In this document: positions 9,077-17,905 of the stretch, in pieces | Layout: each line of letters opens with the position of its first letter | How positions within the stretch are numbered: the first letter of the stretch is position 1 | Origin: a virus | Length of the DNA: 25,871 nucleotides | Strand: one strand, 5' to 3' | IMG/VR virus record: IMGVR_UViG_3300022929_000170 | Span: 1-25,871 of that record | Made by a program: the position numbers and the translations under genes | Notes under the pieces: generated by a model | Told to the model about the DNA's origin: nothing | What the model saw: the letters and a program-made list of their open reading frames with translations, nothing else | Database searches by the model: none

Positions 9077-9805
9077 TTAAAAGTTATTCCAAAGATCACT
9101 TGTTACATCACCCGTTGATGAATCACCTGTTGCAGAATAATTGCCTATAGCTGCACCAGTATCCGGATTAGTCATATCAACTACAGTAGTAGTAATAACT
9201 TTACCATCCTTAATTGGTCCATACATGTATGCTTTAAGAGTAAAGTTTAACGTATATGTAATGAATCTTCTAGTCTGGAAATCACCTTCATAATCATCTT
9301 GTAAGCTAATATTATTTAGAATAACTGGAACATCGACCACCAAATCATTATCGGTAATAGGTTGTAATGATAATGTATATTCTGGTGAAAATGTTGGTAA
9401 TATTTGTTCTACGATCTGTAGCGCATCTTCTTGAGTTTTACTTATTACATATAATGAAATTTCGAAATTATATGGAACTGGAGAATACATTCTTTGCACT
9501 GTATCAGTACCATCGCCACACGAAATATAATTCATACGATTAACCTTGCGAGTTGAATCGTATGTTAAACCGGTCATTTCAAATGAAAGCCGCGGCAAAG
9601 ATGTATAGACATATGAATCCAAATTCGGATCCTGGTCGATACGCATAATCCATTTTTCCTTAGGAGCGTATGCAATAGGTACTTCCATACCTTGCACTTC
9701 AATCCCTTCGTTAGATCGAATAATTTTAATATTACTGAATAGAGCACCAAAAGCTACGATAATCTTTCGCGTGATCTGGTGATAATATATATTGTTACTT
9801 AACAT
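9077..9805 (-). CDS. 15: Tail sheath stabiliser / tail terminator gp15
   Basis: A 242-aa homologue of T4 gp15 (272 aa), the hexameric ring that caps the finished tail and joins it to the neck. Diagnostic stretches are the N-terminal YYHQITRKIIVAFGALFSNI, VPIAYAPKEKWIMRIDQDP, YTSLPRLSFEMTGLTYDS.RKVNRMNYI, and MYSPVPYNFEISLYVISKTQEDALQIVEQILP. This pattern is common in T4-like marine phages. Its ATG overlaps the stop of the upstream fibre-like gene as TAATG, implying coupled translation. The C-terminus (after YMYGPI) is a low-complexity Asp/Thr/Gly tail. Confidence 0.93.
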   Translation of the reverse strand: MLSNNIYYHQITRKIIVAFGALFSNIKIIRSNEGIEVQGMEVPIAYAPKEKWIMRIDQDPNLDSYVYTSLPRLSFEMTGLTYDSTRKVNRMNYISCGDGTDTVQRMYSPVPYNFEISLYVISKTQEDALQIVEQILPTFSPEYTLSLQPITDNDLVVDVPVILNNISLQDDYEGDFQTRRFITYTLNFTLKAYMYGPIKDGKVITTTVVDMTNPDTGAAIGNYSATGDSSTGDVTSDLWNNF

Positions 9806-10761
9806 TAGACAATTTTCTTAATAGTCACGTTAACATTAGAAATATAACTCACTGCGCCAGCATCAACTTCTGTATCTGAAGCTGTAAACCAAATTTGGTT
9901 TGATTCTAGCACAGGACTAGTAAATCTAACAATCGTACTTAGTGTTGCCGTTGATCTATTTACTACATCAAATTCTGTGCCGATTGTGCCCAAATTTGCA
10001 GTAGCTCCATCGTCCCCAGCTTTAATAGTAACCGCCATCGTAGACCTAGCATTATTGCCTATTGCGCTAAATACTGCAGTAATTTCATATACGCCGCTCT
10101 GGTAAAATCCGTTAAATTTTCCAGTACTATCTGGAGCAGGAATATGTTCTAATGTTGGATTACTTGCCGCAGAAGATACAAAACCCTGTTCATATGTATA
10201 CGGTCTCCAAGATCCTGAAGCTCCTTGGCCAAGGATAACACTTACGTCAGTTATCTGTGTAAACACATATTTGCCAAAATCTTGGCCTAAATATGCACGA
10301 TACTGTATGCCATCTGCAAATTGAATTCCGGCAAATTCTGGAACAGAGGTAGTTAACAGCTGTTGATCGAGGACCGGAATATCCGGAGTATTTGTCAAAT
10401 CGTTATATGATCCGCTGAATAATATTGGCAAATCATCGAGACTATTATATGAGCCATTAAATGCATCAGTAATACCATAACCAGCCAAAGTGGTTGGAAG
10501 ATTGGTTAGTGAAGAAAATTCACCGTCAAAAAATACAGGACGGTCACTAAGATCATTAAATGAAGTTTGCGGAACATCAGTAAGATCATTATATGATCCG
10601 CTAAATAGTTCTGGCGCTCCAATTAGATCTGTATATAAACGACTAAATTGGATCGAATATAATTCGCCAAACATTTCGTTGGTTTTAATAAAGGCGGCTC
10701 TGAGTGTATCGCCGTTTCCGTCGTTTGCTGATGCGCCTACTTCAATTACTTGTCTTGCCAT
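9805..10761 (-). CDS. Fibre-like virion protein with NDL repeats and C1q-like head
   Basis: A 318-aa protein inserted between neck gene 14 and tail gene 15, where T4 has no gene. Residues 1-36 form the common phage motif IEVGASANDGNGDTLRAAF..TNEMFGELY, seen at the N-termini of many T4-like fibre proteins. Residues about 43-128 hold six copies of a roughly 12-aa repeat of the type S(Y/F)NDLTD.P..F, a shaft-like segment. The C-terminal 120 residues (GFYQSGVYEITAVFSA ... YISNVNVTIKKIV) resemble a C1q/TNF-like jelly-roll head, often trimeric. I infer a trimeric whisker- or collar-fibre-like appendage attached near the neck. The gene starts 1 bp after gene 14 and its stop overlaps the gene 15 start, so it is firmly part of the neck operon. 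Confidence 0.8.
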   Translation of the reverse strand: MARQVIEVGASANDGNGDTLRAAFIKTNEMFGELYSIQFSRLYTDLIGAPELFSGSYNDLTDVPQTSFNDLSDRPVFFDGEFSSLTNLPTTLAGYGITDAFNGSYNSLDDLPILFSGSYNDLTNTPDIPVLDQQLLTTSVPEFAGIQFADGIQYRAYLGQDFGKYVFTQITDVSVILGQGASGSWRPYTYEQGFVSSAASNPTLEHIPAPDSTGKFNGFYQSGVYEITAVFSAIGNNARSTMAVTIKAGDDGATANLGTIGTEFDVVNRSTATLSTIVRFTSPVLESNQIWFTASDTEVDAGAVSYISNVNVTIKKIV

Positions 10762-11503: not shown

Positions 11504-12244
11504 TTATCCCAAGAAAAATTCCAATGGAGCAGATTTTGAGATTAGCGTATCTTCTAATTCTTTAATTTCTTCTATGGCTTCTGCATAGAGTTTATCTCCA
11601 TCCATCGTAACGCCGCCTGGAAGTTGCAATCCACTAAATTTCTTTATGTTAACTGCCCACTGTTTCTTAATAAGCGCTGTGGTATAGTGCTTTAACCATG
11701 GATCACCATAAACTGCAGGATAAGTCGCCGGATCAAGAGCTCTATAACTCTCAACTAGAACGTATGAATCGACGGGAATATTGTCTCCCCATGATTCGTC
11801 GATATACAATCTTCCAGTGTGTCTATTAAATCGGTACAACTGTGAACCGTTCAATGTATGATCTAGTAACGCCAAATGACCCATAACCTGTTTATAGTAT
11901 ATAACTGAAACAGAGGTTAAATCATACAAATCATTTAAGCGAAGTTGGTACTGTAAATCGAATATTGACTTTGATGTACCTGTTCCAGCGGCAATTGGAA
12001 ATACCTTGGTAACGCCGTAAACATAATCAGGAATAGGAATAGACCGAGCATCAACATCGTCTTGAGTTACCTGATGCTTTAGATACATTTTCTCAATGCC
12101 ATCGTAATGATACATTCTCCAATGTTCTATGGCTTCGTCAACGCGGTCTTCCACTTGAGCGTCATCAATGTTGATTTCAACTACAGGTTCGCCGAGCGCT
12201 CTTAAGCAATAATCGATTAATCCATCTCGTGTTGTTACTGCCAT
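11504..12244 (-). CDS. 13: Neck protein gp13
   Basis: A 246-aa neck protein, shorter than T4 gp13 (309 aa) but with the standard landmarks: an N-terminal helix region LIDYCLRALGEPVVEINID..Q.EDRVDEAIEHWRMYHYDG, the VTKVFPI strand, LNDLYDLTSVSVIYYKQVMGHLALLDHTLNG, FNRHTGRLYID, and DPWLKHYTTALIKKQWAVNIKKFSGLQLPGGV near the C-terminus. It completes the head after packaging together with gp14. AGGGAAT precedes the ATG and a late promoter box lies 27 bp upstream. It is the first gene of the neck-terminase unit and directly follows the adhesin block. Confidence 0.95.
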   Translation of the reverse strand: MAVTTRDGLIDYCLRALGEPVVEINIDDAQVEDRVDEAIEHWRMYHYDGIEKMYLKHQVTQDDVDARSIPIPDYVYGVTKVFPIAAGTGTSKSIFDLQYQLRLNDLYDLTSVSVIYYKQVMGHLALLDHTLNGSQLYRFNRHTGRLYIDESWGDNIPVDSYVLVESYRALDPATYPAVYGDPWLKHYTTALIKKQWAVNIKKFSGLQLPGGVTMDGDKLYAEAIEEIKELEDTLISKSAPLEFFLG

Positions 12245-15823: not shown

Positions 15824-17905
15824 TTAACCAGCTTTGAAGATGTATGCTTTACCAGAACCAATACCACCAGCTTCATCTTCACCAAAAGCACCAACAATAG
15901 CGTAATTGCCATCTATTGATATAGTGTCACGGCCAAAAAAATCAGACAAACTTGTATTGTAAGCATTGGGGTTATCTAATGTTTTTACTAATGCACCAGT
16001 CGTCACATCAAAGATATATGCTTTACCTGAACCAGTACCATTAGCGTCATCTTCCATATAAGCTCCAAGAATAGCATAATTACCTGATATTGATACTGAA
16101 TGTCCAAAACGATCATCATCACTTGTATCATAAGCATTCGGATTATCTAATGTATGAACCAATGCTCCAGTAGTGACATTGAAAATATATGCTTTACCTG
16201 AAGTGTTTCCGCCAGCATCATCTTCTGCATAAGTACCAACAATTGCGTAATTACCAGATATTGCTACTGATGAGCCAAAGTAATCATTCTGACTTGTGCC
16301 ATATGCAGTTGGATTATCTAATGTATGAACTAATGCTCCAGTTGTGACATCGAAGATATATGCTTTTCCCGCACGTATGCCGCCAGTATCAGCTTCAACA
16401 TAAGCACCAACGATTGCGTAATTGCCATCTATTGCTACTGCGAAACCAAATTGATCATTAGCACTTGTACTATAAGCATTCGGATTATCTAATGTATGAA
16501 GCAGCGCACCTGTAGTGACGTTAAAGATATATGCTTTACCTGAACTACCACCACCAGCATCATCTTCAGTATGAGCACCAACGATTGCATAGCTATCTGA
16601 TATCGCTAATGCGTAACCAAATTGATCAGTAGCGCTTGTATCATAAGGATTAGGATTATCTAGCGTATGAACTAATGCACCTGTAGTAACGTTAAAGATA
16701 TATGCTTTACCTGAACTAGTACCACCAGCATCATCTTCAGAATAAGTACCTACAATTGCGTAATTACCAGATATCGCTACTCTGGAACCAAATTGATCAC
16801 CAGCACTTGTGCCATAAGCATTCGGATTATCTAGCGTATGAACTAATGCACCTGTAGTAACGTTAAAGATATATGCTTTACCTGAAGTACTAGCACTAGC
16901 ATCATCTTCGGATGCTGCACCAACGATTGCATAGTTACCATCTATTGCAATGGATCGACCAAAATCATCACCAGCACTTGTGCCATAAGCATTCGGATTG
17001 TCTAATGTGTGCAGAAGGGTTGCAGTAGTCCAATCTGGACCAAATGCCAATGTAAACTCTGCAACATCCGTATCTGATGCAGCGCCGTCAGATGCAACAA
17101 ATCTCAACTGAAATACACCAGCGTCACTAATATTTGTACTAGGAGTAATTGTAAATACCGATCCGACATTGGTGACCGTTGTACTTCCCAACGATCCACT
17201 AACAACTTCATATGACCAAGTGATTGCGTGACCATCGGCATCGGTTGCAGCTAATGTGATAACAGTAGGTGTTCCATCACTAGCCAATGTATAAGTCGCA
17301 CTAGGACCAGTACCGATTACTGGTGCAGTATTACTCATTGTAAACTGACTAGACGTGACAATTGTATTTGAACCATCAGTCGCTTTAAACGTCAGACCAA
17401 AGGAACCAATATCACTCGCTCTTGTGCTTGGTGTGATTGTAAAAACATTATCTGCTTGTGTTACTGTAGCAGTTCTACCAAGAGATCCTGTAGTAACTTC
17501 GTATGACCATGTAGGAGAAGTCAATCCACTTTGACTCAATGTAATAACAGTTGGAGTTCCGTCAGTAGCTAAAGTATAAGAACTGTTTGCACCAGAGATA
17601 GATGAAGATGCTCCTGCAATAGTTGCGATATTATACCATCCTGTACCACTCCATAGATACAGTCGATTTGTTTCTACGACGAATGCCATTGCACCAGCAG
17701 TATTGCCGGACAATGGTAATTCTACGGCGGTTTGATATGTGGTTGTATTACTTGCAGATACGGCTTGTTCAGCAGTGCGAACTTCTGCTACTGATGCAAG
17801 TGTTGATATTGGGGTCCACGATTCAGTGGTTTCGGAATATATGAATCTACGACCAAACTTCTTATGAGTTTGTCCAGTTCGTGCACTCCGTGGAAAATTT
17901 GCCAT
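15824..17905 (-). CDS. Adhesin with docking tag, two cadherin-like domains and a near-perfect seven-bladed propeller
   Basis: A 693-aa protein, first of its transcription unit. Tag at 1-31 (MANFPRSARTG...FGRRFIYSETTESW), LPLSGN...AFVVETNRLYLWSGTGWYNIA at about 63-95, two cadherin-like domains (about 103-192 and 195-289), then seven 57-aa blades from 291. Each blade follows LDNPNAY.TS..D.FG..VAI.GNYAIVGAY.EDDAGG..SGKAYIFNVTTGALVHT. Constant positions are nearly invariant while D.FG.. and the EDD loop change from blade to blade. The last blade lacks its outer strand, supplied by N-terminal DWTTATLLHT, a normal ring-closing arrangement. GGAGA precedes the ATG; promoter and terminator lie in the 93-bp gap upstream. 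Receptor binding is inferred. Confidence 0.83.
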   Translation of the reverse strand: MANFPRSARTGQTHKKFGRRFIYSETTESWTPISTLASVAEVRTAEQAVSASNTTTYQTAVELPLSGNTAGAMAFVVETNRLYLWSGTGWYNIATIAGASSSISGANSSYTLATDGTPTVITLSQSGLTSPTWSYEVTTGSLGRTATVTQADNVFTITPSTRASDIGSFGLTFKATDGSNTIVTSSQFTMSNTAPVIGTGPSATYTLASDGTPTVITLAATDADGHAITWSYEVVSGSLGSTTVTNVGSVFTITPSTNISDAGVFQLRFVASDGAASDTDVAEFTLAFGPDWTTATLLHTLDNPNAYGTSAGDDFGRSIAIDGNYAIVGAASEDDASASTSGKAYIFNVTTGALVHTLDNPNAYGTSAGDQFGSRVAISGNYAIVGTYSEDDAGGTSSGKAYIFNVTTGALVHTLDNPNPYDTSATDQFGYALAISDSYAIVGAHTEDDAGGGSSGKAYIFNVTTGALLHTLDNPNAYSTSANDQFGFAVAIDGNYAIVGAYVEADTGGIRAGKAYIFDVTTGALVHTLDNPTAYGTSQNDYFGSSVAISGNYAIVGTYAEDDAGGNTSGKAYIFNVTTGALVHTLDNPNAYDTSDDDRFGHSVSISGNYAILGAYMEDDANGTGSGKAYIFDVTTGALVKTLDNPNAYNTSLSDFFGRDTISIDGNYAIVGAFGEDEAGGIGSGKAYIFKAG
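15827..17012 (-). repeat. Exact 171-bp tandem repeat, seven copies
   Basis: The same landmark (GCATTCGG/GCAGTTGG-like, followed by the complement of TTAGATAATCC) recurs at 15963, 16134, 16305, 16476, 16647, 16818 and 16989, six intervals of exactly 171 bp. Adjacent copies share identical runs of about 60 bp (for example the stretches starting near 16650 and 16821). Each unit encodes one 57-aa propeller blade. Confidence 0.95.

Follow-up and report, generated by a model that had tools for sequence, protein, structure and literature searches.

A seven-bladed FG-GAP propeller with a variable face in a putative adhesin of a marine T4-like phage

What kind of protein is built from near-identical 171-bp repeats that differ mainly at a few fixed positions, and what makes those positions differ? 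The question is raised by a tandem array in a 25.9-kb viral fragment (25,871 nucleotides, here called the window). An initial annotation read the array as a repeat-protein binding surface under diversifying selection, its scaffold kept uniform by gene conversion or duplication. Here we analyze the gene that carries the array, its predicted fold, its relatives in other viral contigs, and its genomic neighborhood.

Results

The array lies in P1, a gene for an adhesin-type protein of 693 amino acids (positions 15824 to 17905 of the window, minus strand, as are all parts of P1 given below). The protein runs from an N-terminal anchor through two Ig/cadherin-like domains to a seven-bladed FG-GAP_2 propeller that forms its C-terminal half. 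Comparison of translations showed that the anchor (residues 1 to 95; 17621 to 17905) is a module common to the adjoining adhesin genes. The two Ig/cadherin-like domains (residues 96 to 288; 17042 to 17620), a probable stalk, are beta-rich in the AlphaFold model, and Pfam models Big_9 and Cadherin_5 match the equivalent region of the neighboring gene P2. Seven TLDNP landmarks lie at P1 residues 300, 357, 414, 471, 528, 585, and 642, an exact interval of 57 codons, or 171 bp. TRF delimited the array at 15837 to 17008 (period 171, 6.8 copies, score 1122). The Pfam family FG-GAP_2 (PF14312) matched P1 in seven stretches (248.7 bits against a curated cut-off of 23; E = 3e-75), and the array is therefore not attributable to chance. 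The exact spacing of seven landmarks noted in the initial annotation is thus confirmed, and every motif that it quoted was found in P1. Neither the DxDxDG cation-binding motif nor a relaxed form of it was found in P1, which places the array with the FG-GAP_2 repeats rather than with the integrin/VCBS type.

Landmark spacing sets the limits of blades 1 (16838 to 17008), 4 (16325 to 16495), 5 (16154 to 16324), and 6 (15983 to 16153). Blade 2 (16667 to 16837) shares with blade 1 an identical 49-nt tract over codons 41 to 57, blade 3 (16496 to 16666) carries the strain polymorphism described below, and blade 7 (15827 to 15982) has a one-residue insertion (RDTISIDG) and is without strand D. Identity between blades ranged from 61 to 86%, with a median of 70%. 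Across the six full blades, 30 of the 57 positions were invariant, and four to five different residues occurred at each of positions 13, 15, 18, 33, 40, and 41; variation is indeed confined to fixed blade positions, as had been proposed.

AlphaFold predicted the C-terminal part of P1 as a closed ring of seven four-stranded blades (mean pLDDT for P1, 83). By DSSP on the model, strands A, B, and C span unit positions 16 to 23, 26 to 31, and 43 to 49, and strand D comprises positions 55 to 57 and runs on into the start of the following unit. The strand D that blade 7 lacks is predicted to come from residues 296 to 302 ahead of blade 1 (17000 to 17020), a Velcro closure. A search of PDB sequences with P1 returned no match; the best PDB match by Foldseek was the integrin alphaIIb head (1tye_A; E = 7e-17, 16% identity), and the viral Foldseek matches included FG-GAP proteins from both cyanophages and giant viruses.

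To avoid circularity, a list of variable positions (13, 15, 18, 32, 33, 39, 40, and 41) was fixed beforehand from distant phage FG-GAP families. A search with an alignment of the close family then identified 201 viral stretches that encode relatives, and the loci kept among them (42 distinct new phage genes, 401 blades) yielded a refined list of 12, 13, 15, 18, 32, 33, 40, and 41. In the 401 blades, variability ranked in the order 18, 33, 15, 41, 40, 32, 13, and 12, at 2.87 to 3.70 bits, the next position reaching 1.95. Eight positions per blade amount to about 56 exchangeable face residues per ring. Blade number is likewise regular: 82 of 104 propeller units had exactly seven blades and five more were 14-blade runs, so that proteins carry arrays of 7, 14, or 21 blades, on many different N-terminal stems. 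Other counts were few, about half of them touching the edge of an open reading frame or contig. Three single genes (in L190, L222, and L252) encode 21 blades of the P1 family, or three seven-blade rings each.

In an antiparallel blade, loops B-C and D-A emerge on one face of the propeller and turns A-B and C-D on the opposite face, and we assigned faces from the strand topology of the predicted blades on this basis. Seven of the eight variable positions fell in the D-A loop (12, 13, and 15) or the B-C loop (32, 33, 40, and 41; Fisher P = 0.005), and the eighth, position 18, comes third in inner strand A, at the end that adjoins the loops. None of the eight lay in the A-B or C-D turns. The initial annotation had anticipated a constant scaffold with its variable surface on one face, as opposed to variable sites scattered over buried strands, and the model agrees with the former. 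The variable loops had lower model confidence (pLDDT, ∼64 to 76). Strand topology in the model thus supports the placement of the variable positions on a single propeller face.

The residues found there are also restricted. Positions 15/18 and 32/33 carried tyrosine at 24 to 28%, where 4.6% was expected (5- to 6-fold enrichment), compared with 7 to 12% in bacterial FG-GAP blades; lysine accounted for 0 to 1%, and cysteine was almost absent. Conserved residues D14, E34, D35, and D36 are interspersed with the variable ones. In FG-GAP blades of cellular origin, too, these positions rank among the most variable, and fold constraint therefore accounts for part of where variation is allowed.

We then compared selection at variable and scaffold positions. 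In P1 alone, dN/dS was 1.26 at variable positions (bootstrap pN/pS, 0.77 to 2.23; not significant) and 0.15 elsewhere. In the relative L005, pN/pS at variable positions was 1.57 (1.23 to 2.47). Because comparisons between blades are nearly saturated, ortholog pairs provide the better test, and two such pairs were used: L230/L218 (90.3% identical) and L228/L253 (92.5%). Here dN(HV)/dS was 1.92 (95% interval, 1.22 to 2.86) with the refined list and 1.70 (1.04 to 2.58) with the list fixed beforehand, while the scaffold ratio was 0.22 to 0.25. Nonsynonymous and synonymous changes stood at 62:9 at variable positions versus 47:65 in the scaffold (Fisher P = 3e-10), P values in this comparison being optimistic since blades are not independent samples. 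Loop variation that is mainly synonymous, an outcome checked as evidence against the initial proposal, was thus not seen. Taken together, these comparisons provide significant evidence that diversifying selection acts on face positions in the orthologous relatives; for P1 by itself, the proposal of such selection is only suggestive. A tree-based codon model of the whole family, with an omega of 0.25, was set aside as saturated and partly unconverged.

The proposed homogenization by gene conversion or duplication was mostly not borne out. Between P1 blades, pS was 0.47 in the scaffold and 0.48 at variable codons. Since the scaffold is near saturation at synonymous sites, what preserves it is purifying selection on the protein sequence, and the uniform synonymous divergence does not support gene conversion or recent duplication as its main homogenizer. 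Weak homogenization was detected in the 49-bp tract common to blades 1 and 2. Blades of one gene shared codons at 0.72, versus 0.62 between phages, and blades did not correspond by ring position between phages; this slightly higher sharing within genes, together with the lack of a ring-position match, indicates turnover that is old or partial. Similarity between blades of the same gene was strong in one lineage only. Transfer of loops as cassettes was also rejected: codons 15 and 18, although separated by just two others, were in linkage equilibrium, and linkage among variable codons was limited to adjacent ones.

In four relatives (L005, L006, L007, and L008), synonymous diversity at sites flanking the variable codons (codons 6 to 19 and 30 to 44 of each unit) was ∼2- to 6-fold lower than in the rest of the blade. 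Pooled with P1, these relatives gave 0.34 near variable codons versus 0.75; P1 pooled with a 946-amino-acid propeller gene of the same phage gave 0.45 versus 0.80 (P = 0.003). This synonymous valley was present in 26 of 42 further genes, with a mean difference of 0.06, and absent from distant phage FG-GAP families. It was therefore rejected as a general feature and appears lineage specific. Candidate causes are localized recombination within this lineage, codon constraint in the loops, or selection against long exact repeats where the strands are invariant.

Strain variation was assessed in further assemblies of this phage (L001, L002/L098, L097, L099, L115, and L177), which are 99.5 to 99.95% identical. 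The neighboring propeller gene P3 had no SNPs in four covering assemblies. P1 had a single SNP in two covering assemblies (AGT to AAT, S454N, at window position 16545 in blade 3); this nonsynonymous change, at hypervariable position 41, was the only strain SNP in the 5.5 kb of three propeller genes. Arrays were almost unchanged in near-identical contigs of relatives as well. Among same-phage assemblies the array is thus nearly free of polymorphism, and nothing points to hypermutation at present.

The window reads gp22, gp21, gp20, gp19, gp18, gp17, gp3, gp14, and gp13, followed by P3, P2, P1, P4, P5, and P6. It includes a T4-like structural module with portal (Portal_T4; E = 9e-184), terminase, sheath, tube, and neck proteins. 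The portal is most similar to that of Methylophilales phage Melnitz (56% identity), followed by that of Pelagibacter phage Mosig (54%); the source is a marine T4-like myovirus. In the phage collection, tblastn returned no close relative of P1; all 16 matching records were below 60% identity.

Five consecutive paralogs, P1 to P5 (12322 to 22323), share one N-terminal module and an Ig-like domain and differ in their C-terminal ends: three FG-GAP propellers, a LamG triplet, and a degenerate propeller. On the minus strand, P3 (12322 to 14019) is a paralogous adhesin with a seven-blade FG-GAP_2 propeller of another blade family (Pfam E = 4.6e-116, seven stretches), and P2 (14040 to 15806) joins the common module to a divergent FG-GAP_2 propeller (E = 2.9e-42, six stretches). 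In P4 (17999 to 20551, minus strand), three LamG/ConA-like lectin domains (PF13385; E = 2.1e-51, three stretches) come after the module. The battery, P1 included, lies just upstream of the conserved neck gene gp13 (11504 to 12244, minus strand; PHROG 211, head-tail adaptor), which bounds it. In the sister phages examined, gp13 is 71 to 80% identical and the adjoining slot is occupied by large unrelated genes. Judged by this shared architecture, P1 to P5 constitute a battery of exchangeable adhesin heads.

On a 42.7-kb contig from this phage, the battery runs on upstream. That contig also holds the 946-amino-acid gene mentioned above (L178, 3820 to 6657), which encodes two FG-GAP propellers, the second in the P1 blade family. 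A near-complete record of the same species (L099, 136,533 bp) begins within the terminal part of a P2-like gene, and its other end falls inside a large fiber gene; its assembly therefore breaks exactly at the adhesin battery. P6 (22710 to 25331, 873 amino acids) resembles a degenerate beta-propeller in sequence; it has no Pfam or PHROG match, and the sole relative found in viral contigs is from the same phage. In the last LamG domain of P4 (18147 to 18433), 19 to 20 SNPs occur within 287 bp, ten of them nonsynonymous, between strains whose nearby sequence is otherwise 99.8% identical, and independent same-phage contigs break at ∼18.5 to 18.6 kb. The SNP cluster and the contig breaks suggest either that alleles of this lectin domain coexist or that it contains a recombination tract.

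Discussion

These results are best accounted for if P1 is a host-adhesion protein of the tail-fiber type whose diversifying propeller face binds changing bacterial receptors, a reading that we consider probable. Weighing against it are the nonsignificant ratio in P1 alone, the whole-family omega of 0.25, a significant test confined to two ortholog pairs, and the near lack of array polymorphism in the population. The N terminus would anchor the protein to the virion, the Ig-like domains would form a stalk, and the seven-bladed FG-GAP propeller would turn one face to the bacterial surface. Strong purifying selection would maintain the scaffold, while diversifying selection on face positions would allow different or changing surface receptors to be bound, with host variation as the presumed selective force. 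Sequence and model together support reading the variable face as a binding surface. P1 also bears the signature of a receptor-binding gene, combining a variable cassette beside conserved tail and neck genes with a diversifying surface. Replacement of an entire locus, as seen among the sister phages, is characteristic of genes for receptor binding.

The variable residues could instead reflect relaxed constraint, with neutral variation in unimportant loops of a structural decoration protein. The dN/dS at variable sites of P1 alone is compatible with 1, and the positions concerned also belong to the most variable ones of cellular blades. We nevertheless regard this as unlikely given the ratio above 1 in orthologs, a residue palette far from neutral in its excess of tyrosine and near absence of lysine and cysteine, and the conserved acidic residues interleaved with the variable ones. 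Slightly less likely still is that the propeller is no adhesin but a head, neck, or whisker component of the virion or an enzyme that processes polysaccharides. T4 carries fibritin (wac) immediately upstream of gp13, and cyanophage relatives are annotated only as "virion structural protein." Against such a role, the neighbors of P1 include LamG lectin-type and other propeller proteins built on one N-terminal module, the whole locus is replaced among sister phages, as receptor-binding genes typically are, and Pfam detected no catalytic family.

Targeted hypermutation, in which a diversity-generating retroelement (DGR) or similar system rewrites the variable codons, is very improbable. In its favor, codons 15, 18, 33, and 41 of the closest relatives are near random in each of their three bases, and flanking synonymous sites are unusually conserved in one lineage. 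The adenines beside the variable codons (GAT, GAA, TCA, and AAA) are nevertheless constant, unlike those of DGR targets, the array is nearly identical between strains, and the synonymous valley did not replicate across the 42 further genes. No reverse transcriptase (PF00078) was found in eight related records, including the 136.5-kb record of the same species. A DGR was accordingly rejected as the source of variation, which is not adenine directed.

Returning to the adhesin reading, P1 can be set beside several known propellers. Like the integrin alphaIIb head (1tye), it is predicted to have seven four-stranded blades with the FG motif and Velcro closure and long variable loops on one face; in integrins, this is the ligand face. 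P1 differs in being a phage protein with 16% identity, no DxDxDG calcium motif, and blades ∼70% identical to each other. In its logic, the arrangement appears closest to that of the fungal HNWD WD40 propellers (het-d/het-e/het-r), which have near-identical blades with a few interaction-face codons per blade under diversifying selection (PMC1805685, PMC2873952). Face codons with dN/dS above 1 on a conserved scaffold recur in orthologs of the P1 family (P1 alone, 1.26, not significant). HNWD proteins, however, are intracellular NLR receptors with WD40 blades that are homogenized by concerted evolution and reshuffled, whereas P1 has FG-GAP_2 blades with scaffold synonymous sites near saturation, in a family whose blade count stays at multiples of seven. 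With a median blade identity of 0.70, P1 falls among the highly repetitive beta-propellers, defined by a median above 60% in a survey whose FG-GAP members come from bacteria and archaea (PMC9218822). Set against those members, P1 is a phage structural gene, and its synonymous divergence shows that it was not newly amplified. DGR-diversified receptor-binding proteins of phages such as tentaclins, tail proteins with a hypervariable surface (PMC10743442), likewise combine a constant fold with surface variation; P1 differs from them in that no reverse transcriptase was found in related records and in variation that is not adenine specific. Melnitz (MZ577097) has the same gene order into gp13, with genes annotated "tail fiber" in the slot by the neck gene; the tblastn matches to P1 did not include these. 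Our literature search found no paper on FG-GAP phage tail fibers.

The family and the fold were thus known; new is the arrangement, which combines a phage FG-GAP ring, units of seven, eight selected positions per blade, and a diversified array for which no mutator was found. We suggest, tentatively and with rather less confidence than for P1 itself, that uncultured phages share an evolvable FG-GAP binding scaffold, in rings of seven (7, 14, or 21 blades) on many stems, whose eight exchangeable positions per blade diversify codon by codon under selection without a dedicated mutator. If so, this family, found in ∼200 stretches of viral contigs, would be a phage counterpart of repeat-protein recognition repertoires; the design of near-identical propeller blades with one diversified face, previously described in fungal self-recognition genes, would extend to a phage adhesin family. 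The model predicts which adhesin residues set specificity, making receptor choice in uncultured marine phages testable, and offers a natural scaffold with its ∼56 face positions per ring open to exchange.

Between gp3 and gp14 in the window, a 318-amino-acid gene (9805 to 10761) matches gp9-type baseplate/tail-fiber connectors over its first ∼36 residues only, and its strain SNPs are mostly nonsynonymous (four nonsynonymous and two synonymous in L001).
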